Position numbers and translations under genes: made by a program. From Singulisphaera sp. GP187 (GTDB lineage: Bacteria > Planctomycetota > Phycisphaerae > Phycisphaerales > SM1A02): 64,000 nucleotides of DNA. A model generated the notes under the pieces. It was not told where the DNA came from. It did not search any database and was given only the letters and a program-made list of their open reading frames with translations. Positions 25,859 to 62,553 of the stretch are shown one piece after another (position 1 is the stretch's first letter; the number at the start of each line of letters is the position of its first letter). The stretch is taken from the NCBI GenBank assembly GCA_945869475.1, contig CAMBOV010000001.1, positions 372,001 to 436,000 on the forward strand. The letters are read 5' to 3'.

Positions 25859-28081
25859 ATGTTTATTCGAACGACTCGACGCCTTGCAACTCTCGTTGTT
25901 TCCACTGCGACACTCGCCGTCGCTTCGGGAGCGTTCGCGCAAGTGACCCTGAATGAGATTCGCGTCGATCAACCTGGACTCGATCTGAGCGAGTACGTCG
26001 AACTCAAAGGCACGCCTGGAGCATCACTCGCTGGACTGACCTTACTCGTGATCGGCGACAACGACGCAGCAGCAGCGCCAGCACAGAACGGAACAATCGA
26101 AGCGGTCGTGGCTCTTGCTGGAGTGATTCCATCGAGCGGGTTCTTCGTCGTAGCAGAAGCGACGTTTGCACTCGGGGTGGCCGATCAAGTGGCGATCCTG
26201 AACTTTGAGAATCCAGACGATCTCACCTTCCTCGTGGTGAGCGACTTCGTCGGAGCAGACGGCGCGGATGTCGACACGAACGATGACGGCACACTCGATG
26301 TCTTTCCATGGACGGCGATCATCGACTCAGTCGCCTTGGTGCAGACGCATACTCCAGATGGAACGACGGCAGACTTCGTGTACTCAACGACGCACGCTGG
26401 CCCTGACGGCTCGACCAGCCCATCCCAAACGTGGAAGTGCGCCAACAGTGCGAACTGGACCGTCGGCAGCGCCGATACCACACTCGCAAGCGATAGCCCT
26501 GGCGCTGCGAATCCAACCTGTGGAAGCACCGTTGCACTCAAGATCTCTGAAGTTCGGATCGATCAGGCGGGCACTGACAACGACGAATATTTCGAGATTC
26601 AGGGTCCACCGGGCATGAGTTTGGCGGGATACACCTACCTCGTGATCGGCGACAACAACGTCGTCGGATCCGTCGATCTCACTGGATCAATTGAGAGCGT
26701 CACGCCACTCGATGGCGCCGTCATCCCAGCGGATGGATACCTCTTGGTCGCAAAGTTAACGATGACCATCGCGATTCCAGACTTCATCGTCGTCGCCACA
26801 GCGATGAACTTCGAGAACAGTGACAACGTCACGCACATGCTCGTTGCGAACTTCACGGGCGTCCTCAACGGCGACGTCGATCTCGACAACAACTGCGCAA
26901 TCGATGCTGGCGCTCCGTGGAGTGCCATCGTCGATTCGATCGCACTCACCGGACTCGATACGACCTGCGTCTACTCGAGCGAGATTGCCGGACCCGACGC
27001 GACCTTCACAACCGTGCATGCCTTTCGCTGCTACCCAGATGGTCTCGTGTCGGTTGGCGCGTATGACCTCTTCGCCGGTGGAGACACACCTGGGTTCCAA
27101 AACCGCGCGTGCGGACTCGGACCAGTTCTTGAATGCGGCGAGTCCATTACTGGATTGTGCACACAAGCGCACGCGAATCCATACTGCGCCGATTCAGTCT
27201 GCTGCACACTGATCTGCAGCACACAGCCACTCTGCTGCTCAGTGACTTGGGATGCCGCCTGCGCCGCCGCAGCGACAGCCTCGTGCAACCAGACAGGCTC
27301 GGCTTCGTGCGAACGAGCCACCATTTCCTTCAGCGAAATCCGCATCGACCAGACCGGAACAGACACGGATGAATGGGTCGAATTCGTCGGCGCTCCAGGC
27401 GCAAGCTTTGCGGGTCTCACGATGATCGTGGTGGGCGACTCGACCGCTGGCGTCAGCGGCGTCATCGAGTGTGTGGTCAATCTCACGACAGCCGTGATGC
27501 CAGCGGATGGTCACTACGCGATCTCTGAGTTGACCTTTACCCAAGGAATCGCAAACATCGATTCTGTGCTCCCTGGAACGAACCCACTGAACTTCGAGAA
27601 CAGTGACAATGTCACGTTCATGCTCGTTTCGGATTTCACAGGCACCGTTGATCAAGACCTCGACACCAACGATGACGGCATCTTCAACGTCACTCCATGG
27701 TCTGCCGTGATCGACACGATCGCGTTGATCAAGACCACGACCCTTCCACCAACTGGAACAGAGTGGTACTACGGTCCAAACACGATCGGTCCAGACGTTA
27801 CATTCGTGCCAGGTCACATCTGGCGCTGCGAAGCGACGGGATGTTGGAACATCGGACTCTTTGACATTGTCGCGGCTCACGATGACACGCCAGGTGTTGC
27901 CAACGCCCCATGCGCGGTGCCATGTCCGGGTGACTACAACGCCAACGGCATCCGCGATGGTGCAGATCTTGCGACGCTTCTCTCGGCATGGGGAACACCA
28001 GGTGGTGACATCGACGGCGATGCGAACACCAGCGGTTCTGACCTTGCGACTCTGCTCAGCGGTTGGGGCGCCTGTCCATAA
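25859..28081 (+). CDS. secreted lamin-tail-like repeat protein with Cys-rich module and dockerin-like C-terminus
   Basis: A 740-residue exported protein. The signal peptide ends near A-F-A-Q (about residue 29). Three homologous domains of about 190 residues follow, each opening I-R-V/I-D-Q-x-G-x-D-x-x-E-Y/W and containing S-L-A-G-L and V-I-G-D. This suits a lamin-tail-like beta domain, though that name is an inference. Between domains 2 and 3 is one copy of the 43-residue Cys-rich module (27158-27286). The last 60 residues hold two dockerin-like segments (A-D-L-A-T-L-L-S-A-W-G and S-D-L-A-T-L-L-S-G-W-G) and end in Cys-Pro. AGGAGA lies just before the start. A surface or secreted adhesion role is likely but not shown. 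Confidence 0.85.
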   Translation: MFIRTTRRLATLVVSTATLAVASGAFAQVTLNEIRVDQPGLDLSEYVELKGTPGASLAGLTLLVIGDNDAAAAPAQNGTIEAVVALAGVIPSSGFFVVAEATFALGVADQVAILNFENPDDLTFLVVSDFVGADGADVDTNDDGTLDVFPWTAIIDSVALVQTHTPDGTTADFVYSTTHAGPDGSTSPSQTWKCANSANWTVGSADTTLASDSPGAANPTCGSTVALKISEVRIDQAGTDNDEYFEIQGPPGMSLAGYTYLVIGDNNVVGSVDLTGSIESVTPLDGAVIPADGYLLVAKLTMTIAIPDFIVVATAMNFENSDNVTHMLVANFTGVLNGDVDLDNNCAIDAGAPWSAIVDSIALTGLDTTCVYSSEIAGPDATFTTVHAFRCYPDGLVSVGAYDLFAGGDTPGFQNRACGLGPVLECGESITGLCTQAHANPYCADSVCCTLICSTQPLCCSVTWDAACAAAATASCNQTGSASCERATISFSEIRIDQTGTDTDEWVEFVGAPGASFAGLTMIVVGDSTAGVSGVIECVVNLTTAVMPADGHYAISELTFTQGIANIDSVLPGTNPLNFENSDNVTFMLVSDFTGTVDQDLDTNDDGIFNVTPWSAVIDTIALIKTTTLPPTGTEWYYGPNTIGPDVTFVPGHIWRCEATGCWNIGLFDIVAAHDDTPGVANAPCAVPCPGDYNANGIRDGADLATLLSAWGTPGGDIDGDANTSGSDLATLLSGWGACP
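27158..27286 (+). repeat. Cys-rich module, copy 1
   Basis: A 43-residue unit with the spacing C-x3-H-x4-C-x4-CC-x3-C-x5-CC-x3-WD-x2-C-x7-C. It is the same length, to the base, as the four copies near 58.7-62.0 kb. Confidence 0.9.
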
Positions 28082-35918: not shown

Positions 35919-35984
35919 AGAATGCAAAATGCGTGGTAGTGTCCTCTCGTGCACCAGACCACTCATTCCTTGCGAATGGGCTCG

Positions 35985-37142
35985 ATGAAGAATTCAACCA
36001 CCAATCGCCGTGCGACAACACTTGTCGAAACGCTTGTCGTGCTGCTCTCTGTGGTGGTCTTCATGCTGTTGTTCATGGCGGTCACGAGCAACGCGGTGCC
36101 GATGCGCATGCTCACCGGCGAAGAAGTTTCGAAGGCGAATCTTGTCGATATTCACGAAGCGCACGTGCTCTACGCCAACAACAACGGTGGCAAGCAGTGG
36201 AGCGCGCACCTTGACAACTTTGGAAACACCCTTGGAAACTGTTCGCAGTACGTCGCAACCGTTGGTTGCCCGCCGCAACAAATCATGGGCTTCGATGCAA
36301 ACGGCGGTCAATGGGGGTACTGGGCTGGCGGCGCGATGTGCCCACCGCAATATCCAAGCGGTTGCGGGAACTGGCCGGTGTATCTCCCAAATGCGTGGTC
36401 GGGAAACTGGTTTGGCTCATGGAACACCCTTCAGATGAAGTCGTTTCACGACTATCTCAATGGACGCTTCTACGACCGAACCTATTACGCACCCAACGAC
36501 ACAGCCTTGTACGCCGCAGCGGCGCCCTACTTCAATTCAGCCGTTGAGTTCAATTACCCACCAACCACGATCGCCTGGTCGAGCTACGGCATGTCACCCG
36601 CTGCGATGTGGAATCCCGAAGTTTTGCGCGCACCCTCGGCCGGAGGTTTTCGAAATCCATCCGCTTTCGCAGGAGCATTCGAGCGACAGCAACTCGCAGG
36701 TGCAACCTACCCCGAACTCAAGTCACTCACCTTTGAGAAGAATTGGAATCAAGATGCTCCAACCGCATCTGGATTGCCCTTCAACAAGTCTCCATCCGGG
36801 CGTCCAATCACGCTTTTTTATGACGGCCATACAGATGGACTCTCGAACGCGCGAGCGATCGAGGATGACGCACGAGTCACCGCGCAAGGCGGCGATGGGC
36901 TCTGGCACCGAGGCACGCCGTGGGGGACAAGTGGCTATTCCGCTGGCGTCACCAGTCACTCAGTACTCACAACCGATGGAATACGTGGGCGAGACATCGT
37001 GGCATGTGTCACGAGCGGTCATGTGCTCGCCGACATGCTTGTGAACTGGGGAGGCACTGGATCGACCGATCTCAACGGCGACGGAGTCATCAACGGCCTC
37101 GATCTCAACGTCTTACTGAGCGACTGGCGCAGTTGTCCGTGA
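35985..37142 (+). CDS. type IV pilin-like/pseudopilin protein with dockerin-like C-terminus
   Basis: A 385-residue protein with a class III signal: a basic leader (K-N-S-T-T-N-R-R-A), then T-T-L-V-E-T-L-V-V-L, with Glu at position +5 as in pilins, and a long hydrophobic helix. Prepilin peptidase would cut after the Ala. The body is rich in Trp, Tyr, Asn and Gly and resembles the large pseudopilin-like proteins common in planctomycetes. The last 40 residues carry two dockerin-like segments (N-G-L-D-L-N-V-L-L-S-D-W) ending in Cys-Pro. The ATG at 35985 gives the shortest leader; 35976 is an alternative. It diverges from imuA. Confidence 0.83.
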   Translation: MKNSTTNRRATTLVETLVVLLSVVVFMLLFMAVTSNAVPMRMLTGEEVSKANLVDIHEAHVLYANNNGGKQWSAHLDNFGNTLGNCSQYVATVGCPPQQIMGFDANGGQWGYWAGGAMCPPQYPSGCGNWPVYLPNAWSGNWFGSWNTLQMKSFHDYLNGRFYDRTYYAPNDTALYAAAAPYFNSAVEFNYPPTTIAWSSYGMSPAAMWNPEVLRAPSAGGFRNPSAFAGAFERQQLAGATYPELKSLTFEKNWNQDAPTASGLPFNKSPSGRPITLFYDGHTDGLSNARAIEDDARVTAQGGDGLWHRGTPWGTSGYSAGVTSHSVLTTDGIRGRDIVACVTSGHVLADMLVNWGGTGSTDLNGDGVINGLDLNVLLSDWRSCP

Positions 37143-37923: not shown

Positions 37924-38013
37924 CGTGACGTCAATCAAGCAAACTGGTCTGCCGCGGTCACATGGGGGCTTCACGGCAACGATGTCGCACAGATTGACGG
38001 CAACACACTCGCA

Positions 38014-39858
38014 GTGACATACAAGAAGGGATTTCTCACGACCAACATGGCGATCGCTGCGCGCGCGAACGGCGCGGTTGCCCTCGTGGGGACCGAAGCC
38101 AAGAACGAGATTCGCTTTGAACCGAATGTGAATGGCATCTTTGTTCGTGTCGAGGGAGCGCTCTTCACCGCTGCGAGCACGACGCCAACAACGCGAGCGG
38201 ATCTCAATCCCCACCTCACCTATGCGACGCCAACAATTCCTCAGGCGCAGCGATTGCTGTCGATCGGTGATCCGCGCGGTGTTGCATTCTCGAGCGATGG
38301 CAGCAAGCTCTACATTACCGGCTTGGGATCACACAACCTTGTCGTCGCGAACGCGACGAATCTTTCACGCGTTGCGCTGACTCCGACGGGCCTGGGACCC
38401 ACCGGCATTGCCGTCGATGCGGCGAATGACCGCATCTACGTCCTCAATCGATTTGAGGCTTCGATCAGCGTGTTCGACGAGTCATCGCTCGGAGAGTCGC
38501 AGCGAATCTCGTTTTTCGATCCGACTCCTGCCGTCGTGCACAGTGGACGACCATTCTTGTATGACACGCACTTCTCGAGCGGTCTTGGGCACGTCTCGTG
38601 CGGCTCGTGTCACATCGATGGACGGCTCGACCATCTCTCATGGGATCTCGGCGACCCGCAGGGAGACGTCGTCGACAACACCGAGAGTTGCAACCTCGGC
38701 CTGCCGCTGGGTACCTGCGAAGATTTCCATCCGATGAAGGGACCGATGAATACACAGACTCTGCTGGGGCTCCTCGGCAACGAGCCCTTTCACTGGCGTG
38801 GTGATCGAACGGACTTTCTTGCATTCGCGCACGCCCCCGTAACTCTGCTGGGCGGCGACGGCGACTTCACGACGAACGAGATGTCGAGGCTTAGGCAATA
38901 TGTGAACAGCATCCGGTTTCCGCCGAATCCAAATCGCAATCTCGACGGCTCGCTTAAAACGAGTTTTGAGGCTGGCAATCCGGTCACTGGATTCAATCTC
39001 TACCAAGTCGGCAATCTCGATTTCGTGCAGTGCGTCACATGCCACACGCTTCCGACGGGTGGGCTCGGCGAAATCATTTCTGCAAATTTGCTCGCTGAAG
39101 CGCAGAGCATGAAGGTGCCGCAACTTCGAAACATGTACGAGAAGGCTGGAATGGACAAGACAAGCCAAAACAACAGTCGTGGATTTGGATTCGTTCACGA
39201 TGGAGCGACCGACACGCTCGTGAGTTTCCTTTCGCTTTCTGTCTTCAACTTTGCGACAGGCGCAGCAGGACAGCAGCAACGACGCGATGTCTCCGCATTC
39301 CTGATGAGCTTCGACTCTGGCACCCATGCGAGCGTTGGCGCACAGGCGACCAAGGGTGGTGCGGTCGATCAGACGGCACGGCGAGGGGAACTCGTCACGA
39401 TCGCGAGCGCAGGATCGAGCCAACTCACAGCGCGCGGCAATTTCAACGGCACACTGCGTTCGTTCCTCTTCACAGGCGGCGCTGCATTTCAGTCTGACCG
39501 CCTTGCGGAGATACGGACACTTGCAGAGCTCGACGCGCAGACCAGCGCATCGAACCCATTTACCTACACGCTTGTCGTCAATGGCACAGGCACACGCATC
39601 GCACTCGACCGTGACGGTGACGGTTTTTATGATCGCGATGAGATTGAACAGTGTGCCGACCCGTCGGACGCTTCGAGCGTTCCTGGCGGCAGTGGCGGGT
39701 GCCCCGATGTCGATCACAACGGCTTCGTAGACGGAACCGATCTCGCTGTGATCCTGTCGAATTGGGGTGGAACGGGCATGGGCGATCTTGATTGCTCAGG
39801 TCTCGTCGATGGAGGCGATCTTGCACGGATGCTCAGCGGATGGGGCGTCTGTCCGTAG
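38014..39858 (+). CDS. YVTN beta-propeller / di-heme cytochrome c peroxidase, 3' part, dockerin-like C-terminus
   Basis: The continuation of the gene interrupted at 37921; coding in this frame resumes directly after that stop, and 38014 (GTG) is only the next possible start. It has further propeller blades (G-V-A-F-S-S-D-G-S-K-L-Y-I-T-G), then a peroxidase/MauG-like region with two c-type heme sites, C-G-S-C-H and C-V-T-C-H, and P-M-K-G-P-M-N-T-Q-T-L-L-G-L, usual for this family. The end has two dockerin-like segments and Cys-Pro. The fusion of electron-transfer hemes with a propeller suggests periplasmic or surface oxidation of an unknown substrate. Confidence 0.83.
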   Translation: MTYKKGFLTTNMAIAARANGAVALVGTEAKNEIRFEPNVNGIFVRVEGALFTAASTTPTTRADLNPHLTYATPTIPQAQRLLSIGDPRGVAFSSDGSKLYITGLGSHNLVVANATNLSRVALTPTGLGPTGIAVDAANDRIYVLNRFEASISVFDESSLGESQRISFFDPTPAVVHSGRPFLYDTHFSSGLGHVSCGSCHIDGRLDHLSWDLGDPQGDVVDNTESCNLGLPLGTCEDFHPMKGPMNTQTLLGLLGNEPFHWRGDRTDFLAFAHAPVTLLGGDGDFTTNEMSRLRQYVNSIRFPPNPNRNLDGSLKTSFEAGNPVTGFNLYQVGNLDFVQCVTCHTLPTGGLGEIISANLLAEAQSMKVPQLRNMYEKAGMDKTSQNNSRGFGFVHDGATDTLVSFLSLSVFNFATGAAGQQQRRDVSAFLMSFDSGTHASVGAQATKGGAVDQTARRGELVTIASAGSSQLTARGNFNGTLRSFLFTGGAAFQSDRLAEIRTLAELDAQTSASNPFTYTLVVNGTGTRIALDRDGDGFYDRDEIEQCADPSDASSVPGGSGGCPDVDHNGFVDGTDLAVILSNWGGTGMGDLDCSGLVDGGDLARMLSGWGVCP

Positions 39859-58206: not shown

Positions 58207-60723
58207 ATGATGCTTACTAAAAAAGTTTTCTTGACCGCGGGTGCTCTGCTCGCTTCCTGTACCACCGCGGGCGTCTACGCCCAAGGCAGTCTCACCTGTG
58301 CTGATGCGGTCGTCGCCGTCGATGGTGACAATGCCTACAACAACGCTGGCGCAACACTCGTCATGGACTACACAGGTCTGTGCGACATGGGTCAATTCGG
58401 TACCGACTTCAATTACAACACAGTCTGGTTCAAATGGGTCGCTGCGACGACTGACACCTACACGGTCTCGAATTGCAATGTCGCTGGCGGCGTCGACACA
58501 CGCTTCTCGGCGCAGACGGACTGCACTGCAGCATCCGTGGTCGGATGCAACGACGACGGCGCGGGATGTGCCAATTTCTCGAGCATCATGACGTTCGCTG
58601 CGAATGCAGGAACGACCTACTACATCGCTGTCGGCGTCTATTCCGCAACGACGGTCGGCGGTCCCGGAACGATGAACATTTCTGCCGGTGGTGGTGGTGG
58701 TGGTGGCGGTGGCGGATGCGGCACAGGCGGCGATTGCTGCATTTCCAACCCCGGCACGATGGGTTGCATCGACACAGAGTGTTGCGACACGGTCTGTGCT
58801 GCTGACGCATACTGCTGCGCAACCGAGTGGGATCAAATCTGCGCGGACCAAGCCGCAGTGATGTGCACCGCATGCGGCGCAGGTGGCTGCTCACTTCCAC
58901 CGTTTGGACAGGCTGAAGTTGAACTCTGCAGCGAAGACACCAACGGTGGTTGCAACGCTGGCGGAGCGAGTGAACCAGCAAGCTTTCCCGTGTCAATCGG
59001 TGGAAGCTATTGGTCAAGCGCCGCGATGCGCGACACCGACTGGTACTCCTTCACCACATCCGAAGGCACCGAGATTACTGCAACTCTGTACAGCAACATT
59101 CCAGCCTTCTGCGCCCTCGTCGATGCAAACGCATGCACGATCGTCGGAACAGTCAGCACTGGAAGCTGCCCAAGCACGATGCTCACGGCATGCGTTGGAC
59201 CAGGCTCGTACTACATCGTCGCACTGCCAAGTGCATTCGCTGAGTTTCCTTGCGGCGGATCGATCTCAGGCGACTATGTGCTTGAGCTCTCAGCGGTGAC
59301 CTGCACATTCACTCCACCAGCGGGTGACGATTGCGCAAACGCCGTGGTCGCAACTCTTGGTGCGAACCCCTTCGACAACAGCAATGCAGGCACAAGCGTT
59401 CCTGACGTCACATGTGGATTCGGCGGAGCGCCATTCACCAAGGACGTGTTCTTCACATTCGTGGCTCCTGCCACTGATGGATACACCTTGCAAACCTGCG
59501 ACTCGTCGATGCCATTCGATACAGGCGTCGAAGTCTGGGATTCATGCCCCGACACGGGCGGCATGATGTTGTTCTGCAACGATGACGGCCCAGGATGCGT
59601 GAACTATTCGTCCCTCTTGGCTGCTCAACTTGTGCAAGATGTCACGTACGTGATTCGAGTTGGTGGATGGAATGGCGCAACTGGTGCAACGGAACTCAAC
59701 ATCACTCAGGGAGCCCCAGTGGGTCCTGCGAATGATGATTGCTCTGATGCCGCAGTTGCGATCATTGGATCGAATGCATTCGATACGAATGGTTCGACCA
59801 CCGATGGTCCAAACCCAACCGACCCAAGCTGCGGTAAATTGGGTGCAGGCTTCTACAACGATGTCTGGTTCTCACTCACGACGCCGACGACCGAGGGATA
59901 TCTCGTGTCACTCTGCTCAGCGACATGGGATACCCGTCTCGATGTCTATGCCAGTTGCGGCGGTGCTCTGGTTGTGTGCAACGACGACGCGTGCGGAACA
60001 CTTGCTTCCGAAGTGACGATCGCGGCAACTGCTGGATCGACCTACAGAATCCGCATCGGTGGATACGGCGCGGCCAACTTCGGAGTGGGTGACATGGTCA
60101 TCTCCGCAGCTGGTGGCGGTGGTGGTGGTGGCGGCGCTGGACTCACCTGCGCGACGCCAGTGGCTCTCGCAATGGGTGCTACACCGTTCACTCGCGTGGG
60201 TGCAACAGTTGACTTGGACTTCACCGGATTCTGCGACATGGGTCAATTCGGAACAGACTTCAATTACAACTGCATCTTCTACACCTTCACCCCAACCCAA
60301 GCTGGTCTCTACCGGTTCTCGACCTGCGGCACTGCTGGTCACGACACACGACTCTCAGCATCGACCGTGTGCAGTGACGTGACGACCGTCGTTGGTTGCA
60401 ACGATGACGGCGCGGATTGCACACTCTTTACATCCATCATGGATGTTCAGTTGGAATGCGACGTCGAGTACAGCATCGCCCTCGGTGGGTACTCCACAAC
60501 GACACCACTCGGAACAGGCACGCTCAACGTGACTGTTACGAGCCCAGTGGCTTGCGGAACACCATGCCTTGGCGATTACAACCTCGACGGGATCCGCAAC
60601 GGTATGGATCTTGCGACGTTGCTCTCATCGTGGGGAGCGCCTGCTGGCGACATCACTGGCGACGGCACCACAAGCGGCCCCGATCTCACCACACTGCTGA
60701 GCGGTTGGGGTCTCTGCCCATAA
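58207..60723 (+). CDS. secreted repeat protein with PPC-like domains, Cys-rich module and dockerin-like end
   Basis: An 838-residue exported protein with a signal peptide (ending near V-Y-A-Q, residue 26). It holds four or five copies of a domain of about 110 residues, each opening with C-A-x-A-V or D-D-C-x-x-A and containing F-x-x-x-A/T-x-T-x-G-Y/T and G-C-N-D-D-G, like bacterial PPC domains. The first and last copies share nearly identical DNA (58382-58420 and 60232-60270), a sign of recent duplication or conversion. Poly-Gly linkers (9 and 7 Gly) separate blocks. One Cys-rich module lies at 58738-58866. The last 50 residues are dockerin-like and end in Cys-Pro. A GGAG site precedes the start. 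Calcium-binding or adhesive roles are inferred only. Confidence 0.85.
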   Translation: MMLTKKVFLTAGALLASCTTAGVYAQGSLTCADAVVAVDGDNAYNNAGATLVMDYTGLCDMGQFGTDFNYNTVWFKWVAATTDTYTVSNCNVAGGVDTRFSAQTDCTAASVVGCNDDGAGCANFSSIMTFAANAGTTYYIAVGVYSATTVGGPGTMNISAGGGGGGGGGGCGTGGDCCISNPGTMGCIDTECCDTVCAADAYCCATEWDQICADQAAVMCTACGAGGCSLPPFGQAEVELCSEDTNGGCNAGGASEPASFPVSIGGSYWSSAAMRDTDWYSFTTSEGTEITATLYSNIPAFCALVDANACTIVGTVSTGSCPSTMLTACVGPGSYYIVALPSAFAEFPCGGSISGDYVLELSAVTCTFTPPAGDDCANAVVATLGANPFDNSNAGTSVPDVTCGFGGAPFTKDVFFTFVAPATDGYTLQTCDSSMPFDTGVEVWDSCPDTGGMMLFCNDDGPGCVNYSSLLAAQLVQDVTYVIRVGGWNGATGATELNITQGAPVGPANDDCSDAAVAIIGSNAFDTNGSTTDGPNPTDPSCGKLGAGFYNDVWFSLTTPTTEGYLVSLCSATWDTRLDVYASCGGALVVCNDDACGTLASEVTIAATAGSTYRIRIGGYGAANFGVGDMVISAAGGGGGGGGAGLTCATPVALAMGATPFTRVGATVDLDFTGFCDMGQFGTDFNYNCIFYTFTPTQAGLYRFSTCGTAGHDTRLSASTVCSDVTTVVGCNDDGADCTLFTSIMDVQLECDVEYSIALGGYSTTTPLGTGTLNVTVTSPVACGTPCLGDYNLDGIRNGMDLATLLSSWGAPAGDITGDGTTSGPDLTTLLSGWGLCP
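58738..58866 (+). repeat. Cys-rich module, copy 2
   Basis: The same 43-residue unit with the conserved Cys spacing and W-D; the N-terminal His of the other copies is replaced by Pro, and an extra Cys precedes the unit. Confidence 0.88.
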
Positions 60724-60754
60724 GTTGGTTTCAGATTCACTTCTTCGAGAGTGC

Positions 60755-60794
60755 AACCCCCCTCGGTCACTGGACCGGGGGGGTTTTCTTTTTG
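60755..60794 (+). terminator. strong intrinsic terminator between the two secreted protein genes
   Basis: AACCCCCCTCGGTC pairs with GACCGGGGGGGTT around a short loop, followed by TTTTC and TTTTT. It lies 31 bases after the stop of the upstream gene. Confidence 0.92.
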
Positions 60795-60837
60795 GGCAAT
60801 TCGCCGAGTTTGTAGTGACAAATCACGGTGGTCACGT

Positions 60838-62553
60838 ATGTTCACTGTGATGCTTTCAATGAAGTTCTCCCCTCGAGTGATTTCTGCCCGGTGCTTCGTG
60901 CTTCTGCTGCCTGCCCTCTGGGCTGCACTCTGGGCTGCGAGCAGCGCATCTGGGCAACTCTGCCCGCCCGGAGCGAGCGGACCCTGCACAAGCGCGCATT
61001 CCACGCCAGGATGCGCCAACCTGGAGTGCTGCGAACTCATCTGCGCGAGCGATCCTGCATGCTGCACAGCTTCCTGGGATGCCTACTGCGCCTTCGTCGC
61101 ATCACTCTCGTGTGACGCGCCTCCGCCAGTGCCATGCGGCTCACCAACGAGTGGCAGTTGCAATGAACCACACGCAACACCATCCTGCTCAGACGCTGCG
61201 TGCTGCACGACGGTCTGCGCGTTTGTGCCATCCTGTTGCACCGTCGCATGGGACACACTTTGCGTCACAATCGCTGATGGCAATTGTGCAACACAATGCA
61301 CTCCGACCTGTCCAACTGGATCGCTCGCTGAAGGGGAAGTGTGTGGCACGCAAAGCAATGGCGCGTGCCCCGCAGGAGTTCCAAATACAAACCTCGTCAC
61401 CATCGGCAATGGCCAGTCACTCTGTGGTCGATTGCAACAGATCAACGATCTCTCACCCGATCTCGATGCCTATCGCATCAACGTCTCCGATCCAAACGGT
61501 GATGGACTTGCGCGACTGACCCTGCAATACACCGCCGAGTACGCGTCTGACTCGAAGAGTTTCATAGCGCTCTTGCCAACCGCATGCACCCCGCTCGCGT
61601 CTGCCTCGCATGTGCTTCAGATGACATCCTGCGGTGTGCAGACCTTTAGTGCGTGTATCCCAGCTGGATCAGCTGGATCAGCTGGATCAGCTGGATCATG
61701 GATCGCCGTCGTTGGCCGAGGAACGTTTCCAAATCCGCAGGTCTACCCACTTGGATGCGGCGGTTTTCACTCGTATTCGCTGGGTGTCTCGTGGAATGAT
61801 CAGTGCTCGAATCCCTGCGGAACCGGTGGCAGCTGCTACGAACCACATGCGGCTCCTGGGTGCGACAACGCAGTCTGCTGCGCGGACGTCTGTGCAGTCG
61901 ATCCAGTCTGCTGCGAGAAGAGCTGGGATCAACTCTGCGCCGACCGAGCGCTCACCACGTGCCCTCCACCAACACCAGCAAACGATCTCTGTCAGAACGC
62001 GAGCGTCGTGCATCTTGGCAACACCACATTCACACTCGTGGGGGCAAACGCGACTGCCTACCCGGCGCCGTCTGGTTGCTTGGTCGGTGGTGGCACGACA
62101 CTCGGTCGTGATGTCTGGTTCCGATTGAGTGACGTTTCTGGAAACGTCGCGATGAGCACCTGCGGTCCTGGCGCACTTGACAGTGTCATCGTGGTCTACG
62201 ACGCGTTGTGCGGAACAACATCGATCGCGTGCAACGACGACGCGTCGACCTGTGCCGCGAATCAACTGAGCTCACACGTCGAATTCGCTGCGACCTGCTC
62301 GAGCGAGTACTTCATTCGGGTCGCGGCGATGCCTGGACAGATTGGCTCTGGAACTCTCAAGATCACATCGACTCTGCCCGCCTGCGCACCCTGCCCTGAC
62401 GTCAACGGAGACAATCAAGTCGACGGGGTCGACCTCTCAGCGGTGCTCGCGGGATGGGGCGCTGGCGGAAGTGGTGACGTGGACGGCGACGGCGCGGTGA
62501 ACGGCGTAGACCTCACGGCGATCCTTGCGGGTTGGGGTGCGTGTCCGAACTGA
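60838..62553 (+). CDS. secreted Cys-rich protein with three Cys modules and dockerin-like end
   Basis: A roughly 571-residue exported protein. The likely signal peptide is M-K-F-S-P-R-V ... A-S-S-A-S-G-Q, so a start at 60859 is nearly as likely as 60838. Two Cys-rich modules (60985-61113 and 61159-61287) come first, then a PPC-like domain of about 160 residues containing a Ser-Ala-Gly repeat from four 9-base units (61662-61697), a third module (61834-61962), another PPC-like domain (C-N-D-D-A-S-T-C) and a dockerin-like end (V-D-L-S-A-V-L-A-G-W-G twice) finishing W-G-A-C-P-N. It is related to the 58.2 kb gene but separated by a terminator. The 3' end overlaps the AMP ligase by 41 bases. Confidence 0.83.
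   Translation: MFTVMLSMKFSPRVISARCFVLLLPALWAALWAASSASGQLCPPGASGPCTSAHSTPGCANLECCELICASDPACCTASWDAYCAFVASLSCDAPPPVPCGSPTSGSCNEPHATPSCSDAACCTTVCAFVPSCCTVAWDTLCVTIADGNCATQCTPTCPTGSLAEGEVCGTQSNGACPAGVPNTNLVTIGNGQSLCGRLQQINDLSPDLDAYRINVSDPNGDGLARLTLQYTAEYASDSKSFIALLPTACTPLASASHVLQMTSCGVQTFSACIPAGSAGSAGSAGSWIAVVGRGTFPNPQVYPLGCGGFHSYSLGVSWNDQCSNPCGTGGSCYEPHAAPGCDNAVCCADVCAVDPVCCEKSWDQLCADRALTTCPPPTPANDLCQNASVVHLGNTTFTLVGANATAYPAPSGCLVGGGTTLGRDVWFRLSDVSGNVAMSTCGPGALDSVIVVYDALCGTTSIACNDDASTCAANQLSSHVEFAATCSSEYFIRVAAMPGQIGSGTLKITSTLPACAPCPDVNGDNQVDGVDLSAVLAGWGAGGSGDVDGDGAVNGVDLTAILAGWGACPN
60985..61113 (+). repeat. Cys-rich module, copy 3
   Basis: 43 residues with C-x3-H-x4-C-x4-CC-x3-C-x5-CC-x3-WD-x2-C-x7-C; identical spacing to the other copies. 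Confidence 0.92.
61159..61287 (+). repeat. Cys-rich module, copy 4
   Basis: 43 residues with the same spacing and conserved His and W-D; separated from copy 3 by 15 residues. Confidence 0.92.
61834..61962 (+). repeat. Cys-rich module, copy 5
   Basis: 43 residues with the same spacing, lying between two PPC-like domains of the same protein. Confidence 0.92.

Follow-up and report, generated by a model that had tools for sequence, protein, structure and literature searches.

What kind of unit is a short cysteine-rich segment that recurs five times in three secreted proteins of a planctomycete, how are its cysteines used, and what might it do for the proteins that carry it? The stretch of DNA that raises these questions, referred to here as the window, is 64,000 nucleotides long, and the genome to which it belongs is referred to as the source genome.

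A ten-cysteine module of about 50 residues

A sequence-only reading of the window had listed five copies of the segment, each of 129 bases; all five were located where they had been placed, and all are in frame, yielding 43 residues (Table 1). Each of these 43-residue cores has cysteines at positions 1, 10, 15, 16, 20, 26, 27, 35 and 43 and a W-D at 31-32. Written as a DNA pattern, CC-x3-C-x5-CC-x3-WD-x2-C-x7-C occurs at exactly five sites across the 64-kb window and at none in 100 dinucleotide-preserving shuffles of it (chance expectation zero), and a profile scan of all six frames found no sixth copy in the window. The earlier delimitation, with nine cysteines, had the core right but missed one conserved cysteine and about six to eight residues at the upstream end. 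In nearly all copies a further conserved cysteine precedes the first listed one, usually as C-G-x(4-6)-C; since it belongs to the module, the unit comprises 49-51 residues and ten cysteines. The invariant spacing described for the segment likewise holds for the five window copies, whereas elsewhere the module has acquired loop insertions and lost pairs of cysteines. Cysteines are numbered below by the columns of a 51-column profile, with Cup denoting the upstream cysteine.

Table 1. Module copies, the genes that encode them and their dockerin-like tails (positions in the window)
Feature	Position	Strand	Remarks
Gene of secreted 740-aa protein	25859..28081	+	copy 1, between repeated domains without Pfam match
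Module copy 1	27134..27286	+	ten Cys; 43-residue core 27158-27286
Dockerin-like tail, 740-aa protein	27932..28078	+	two D-x-N/D-G loops, ...DLATLLSGWGACP
Gene of secreted 838-aa protein	58207..60723	+	copy 2; GBD_T9SS_assoc domains (PF23759)
Module copy 2	58717..58866	+	core 58738-58866; Pro replaces His
Dockerin-like tail, 838-aa protein	60574..60720	+	C-terminal
Gene of secreted protein with copies 3-5	60751..62553	+	third window carrier
Module copy 3	60961..61113	+	core 60985-61113
Module copy 4	61135..61287	+	core 61159-61287; in tandem with copy 3
Module copy 5	61816..61962	+	core 61834-61962; copy used for structure prediction
Dockerin-like tail, protein with copies 3-5	62395..62550	+	weak Dockerin_1 match, E 0.17

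A new family with a predicted compact fold

The view that the module corresponds to no named domain was borne out by searches of Pfam and NCBIfam with 103 diverse copies: no NCBIfam family matched at E <= 1, and Pfam returned only chance matches to single members (best E 0.012). Profile searches of PDB sequences gave nothing credible (best E 0.92, a 17-residue chance match). Foldseek comparison of the predicted module with solved structures returned none at E <= 10, a result that leaves room for a known fold because Foldseek is weak on domains of 50 residues. No description of the module was found in the literature. An initial likeness to the CC-x2-H-D motif of phospholipase A2 was dropped, as the module has a tryptophan in place of the catalytic region and a different spacing.

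Structure prediction had been suggested as a check on a shared fold, and AlphaFold2, given 103 aligned rows drawn from the window and from public sequences, yielded a confident compact model (pLDDT 95.9). In the model, made for copy 5, the N-terminal half is irregular and a helical hairpin comes after it, with helices at 21-30, 33-36 and 41-50. The conserved aspartates 20, 31 and 40 lie directly before the three predicted helices; in the model they would act as helix caps and W39 would form part of the core, so that conservation appears to be largely structural. Since nearly all conserved positions look structural, the remaining surface is free to vary. When three tandem modules of an orthologous array were modeled together, the same helices formed in each (pTM 0.44); the relative orientation of the modules was not confident in this model, and the idea of the array as a rigid rod was set aside.

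Comparison with known cysteine-rich systems places the module among familiar kinds of proteins. The Cys-rich repeats of TraA in Myxococcus xanthus, for which a stalk has been proposed (PMC3325183, PMC6372800) and some of which are dispensable and others essential (PMC6372800), resemble the module in that they are bacterial, secreted, rich in cysteine and arranged in tandem next to recognition domains. TraA repeats (TIGR04201) differ from it in their length of about 20 residues and in having three invariant and two marginally conserved cysteines, and the NCBIfam model for them matched none of the 103 modules. The myxobacterial family C_rich_MXAN6577 (NF041328), also Cys-rich and found in secreted proteins, matches another region of one module carrier (L109). 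DUF4215/TIGR02232 is likewise a Cys-rich family of secreted myxobacterial proteins; the module itself matches neither family. Among animal proteins, EGF and granulin are small disulfide modules that combine a conserved cysteine scaffold with a variable surface and occur in tandem in extracellular proteins. The module shares their working principle but has a different cysteine framework and an all-helical core. It is thus a new family of a known kind, the small disulfide-rich extracellular repeat modules, with a cysteine framework of its own. The family now has an explicit cysteine framework, a predicted fold and, in part, a map of its disulfides, in lineages whose secreted proteins are mostly unannotated.

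Cysteine pairing and the oxidation problem

The sequence-only reading had left the choice between a disulfide-bound and a metal-bound fold under selection. A selected, compact, cysteine-stabilized fold is upheld, and of the two options disulfides are favored because the cysteines vanish in specific pairs. Among 394 non-redundant copies, with kinship ignored in all co-loss tests, coupled loss was found for C9-C18 (both lost in 19, one in 17; p = 1e-20), C28-C35 (both in 7, one in 2; p = 1e-13) and Cup-C24 (p = 5e-13). The same three pairs ranked highest when the set was narrowed to 243 copies sharing less than 60% identity, with myxobacteria excluded (p = 1e-9, 1e-10 and 1.5e-6, respectively), and the co-losses are spread over 18, 7 and 30 loci. 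The ten conserved cysteines thus form an even set in which three pairs are lost together, as is expected of a disulfide-rich secreted module. For the other four cysteines, elimination and helix geometry tentatively point to C34-C43 and C23-C51, and co-loss of C23 with the terminal cysteine is weak (p about 0.01 in the 243-copy set). A cysteine at column 26 appears only where C24 is missing, and C10 is then nearly always present (49/50). This pattern hints at a variant framework in which C10 is bridged to C26 instead. The cysteine count is odd in several natural copies; array copies 4, 12, 14 and 16 (L029) and similar ones carry a single extra cysteine, in column 10 or the upstream loop. Judging from these sequences, odd-cysteine array copies could form disulfides between modules or between chains.

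That the module instead binds zinc or copper through its cysteines and the commonest histidine is suggested by the presence of ten cysteines with a histidine at about half of positions 13, and by the failure to find a recognized Dsb/VKOR pathway in the source genome. We nevertheless consider metal binding highly improbable. A conserved four-ligand zinc set is absent, the cysteines being lost in pairs and not in sets of four; only 225 of 415 copies have His13; and every carrier in the source genome looks secreted.

The oxidation machinery itself presents an anomaly. No match to VKOR, DSBA, DsbB or Thioredoxin_4 was found in the source genome, and in a comparison of 61 genomes of its family VKOR or DSBA was present in 8 of 27 genomes with at least 20 modules versus 26 of 34 with fewer (Fisher p = 3e-4, kinship ignored). 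Elsewhere in the family, VKOR and DSBA are often encoded together in a single open frame of 600-700 residues. Either the module-rich organisms rely on an oxidase that has diverged or is of another type, or the cysteines oxidize spontaneously outside the cell; the missing Dsb/VKOR matches thus pose the question of how secreted proteins become oxidized in these organisms.

Carrier proteins and their dockerin-like tails

The source genome (2.55 Mb, about 97% complete) encodes 28 module copies across eight proteins, all eight of which have a signal peptide as read by eye. For the gene with copies 3-5, translation probably starts at an internal ATG, around 60838 or 60859, directly upstream of the signal peptide (by eye). 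The eight carriers are the three window proteins, an FG-GAP protein, two more tailed proteins, an S8 protease with two degenerate module copies, and a protein of 1400 residues composed of a module array. The domains found beside the module in carriers include S8 protease, FG-GAP, C-type lectin and kelch.

The module had been described as residing in three secreted proteins, always together with a dockerin-like tail. This is accurate for the three window proteins, but genome-wide a C-terminal tail is present in only six of the eight carriers, the exceptions being the array protein and the S8 protease. Conversely, two window proteins (35940-37139 and 37924-39855) have a tail without a module. 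The module and the tail are therefore separate parts that often travel together.

The tail shares with type I dockerins and the GC-type dockerin (NF041540) duplicated C-terminal segments resembling D-x-N/D-G calcium loops. Some module carriers are weakly matched by dockerin_GC or Dockerin_1, and the tail itself is distinct from the module. Dockerin_1 matches fall below the cut-off: beyond the window match in Table 1, there is one to a paralogue (E 0.002) and none to the others, with no Pfam match to the 740-aa protein at E <= 1. Docking of the window tails on cohesins was abandoned as an explanation, since a search of the source genome, at its completeness of about 97%, gave no match to cohesin PF00963 at E <= 1. 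A 'planctosome' that also invokes dockerin and lamin-tail proteins has been proposed for freshwater Phycisphaerae (PMC6461901); the source genome differs from that proposal in lacking a cohesin match.

Distribution across bacteria

Occurrence in planctomycetes and myxobacteria, as anticipated by the sequence-only reading, was confirmed by genome scans. Within the family of the source genome, 84 of the 101 genomes, from 41 of the 45 genera, encode the module, with up to at least 68 copies per genome, and among 392 genomes drawn across the phylum matches were found only in members of this family. Public genomes were scanned with a degenerate DNA pattern; the resulting set is biased towards DPxCC-x3-WD-x2-C, and the pattern itself accounts for part of the invariance of C34, W39 and C43. 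Among the matches listed in that scan, most are from Phycisphaerae and other Planctomycetota, many are from Myxococcota (Sorangium, Corallococcus, Paraliomyxa and others), and one is from a member of the Crocinitomicaceae. At a profile threshold of E <= 1e-5, Paraliomyxa has at least 52 matches; Sorangium and Corallococcus have none, the copies there having a variant framework. The nearest relatives of planctomycete copies are mostly other planctomycete copies, and the myxobacterial copies are more diverse. A profile built from the module copies would label hundreds of proteins.

An old array of 17 modules

The array protein of the source genome carries 17 tandem modules in its single open frame. 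Orthologues are present in several genera, and uppS, purA or both adjoin the array gene wherever the flanks are readable, which places the arrays at an orthologous site between these two genes. Of nine arrays, six have 17 copies; two others have 18 and 16, and one that ends at a contig end has 15. In all pairs of arrays, the similarity between copies at the same position far exceeds that in shuffled order (z 2.5 to 13.4), while copies within one array are only 44% identical to each other. These two observations indicate an old array of individual copies without recent expansion. The spacing from tryptophan to tryptophan is also kept position by position with few exceptions, for example as 54, 56, 56 and 54 at positions 9-12. 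Such a fixed array is a testable candidate surface protein in a poorly known planctomycete family. A run of six copies in Paraliomyxa miuraensis (C72:465638-467419) has identical scores at an exact interval of 330 bases, which suggests that, in contrast to the old array of the planctomycetes, it arose by tandem duplication not long ago. Two relatives (L180, L084) have an additional gene between uppS and the array gene, encoding a reprolysin-like metallopeptidase with FG-GAP repeats (L180:11446-14448); the source genome has no such gene at that place.

Proposed role of the module

We regard it as probable, with moderate confidence, that this is a five-disulfide extracellular module for interaction or display, or for building a stalk. 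The sequence, copy numbers, distribution, coupled cysteine losses, predicted fold and conservation of the array are results of the analysis, whereas oxidation of the cysteines, binding and the nature of any ligand are what we infer. The module would be a self-folding unit of about 50 residues in which five disulfides tie the irregular N-terminal half to the helical hairpin, and it would be used singly or in tandem beside other domains of secreted proteins. In the array protein, 17 non-equivalent modules would be strung together at fixed, position-specific spacing. The likely task would be to display variable binding surfaces, or to build an extended arm, on proteins of the cell surface or matrix.

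The main rival to this interaction or display reading is a passive spacer, an inert and protease-resistant stalk that, as proposed for the TraA repeats, would hold other domains off the cell, without binding anything itself. A conservation pattern that looks wholly structural, the existence of tandem arrays and the stalk hypothesis for TraA (PMC3325183, PMC6372800) make such a spacer possible, and we would give it a minor share of the probability. An inert spacer would hardly need array copies that differ from one another and are each conserved at their own position in other genera; moreover, many proteins have just one copy, which is not long enough for a stalk, and the orientation between modules is not rigid in the three-module model. 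The module might alternatively serve as an inhibitor or pro-region controlling secreted proteases, in keeping with its place N-terminal to the S8 domain in several subtilases, with two divergent copies so placed in one protein (L030), with further module-bearing S8 proteins (L087, L090, L144) and with the fact that disulfide-rich inhibitors are a common kind. We judge this unlikely, given that most carriers, including the array protein and all three window proteins, have no protease domain and that a conserved exposed reactive loop is not evident.

Modules in uncultured phages

The module is also encoded on about ten IMG/VR contigs; structure matches in BFVD (E >= 2.3) had prompted the scan of viral contigs and were themselves dismissed as evidence. 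One carrier (L228:6802-10710) has genes for tail sheath and portal upstream and for head scaffold and major head protein downstream, and the layout recurs around a second (L218:3005-5272), there with portal and scaffold. Two others lie near head-closure Hc2 (L232) and near an internal virion protein (L221), and two further contigs (L233, L234) were grouped with these as having carriers in virion clusters. Since they sit in virion gene clusters, the phage carriers probably belong to the virion. The phage module has no match in cultured phage genomes, and the long phage protein matches these genomes only over its RCC1 part. Occurrence in virion clusters would fit naturally with a role in attachment, and it would allow host prediction and hint at function. 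A bolder version of the interaction reading, which we consider doubtful, is that the module is a dedicated recognition unit of the surface or matrix, that the conserved 17-copy protein is a family-wide organizer of the surface, that phages of these bacteria captured the module as a means of attaching to their host, and that module-rich lineages oxidize it by an undescribed thiol-oxidation system. A disulfide-rich module on a phage protein, made in the cytoplasm, is in itself unexpected.
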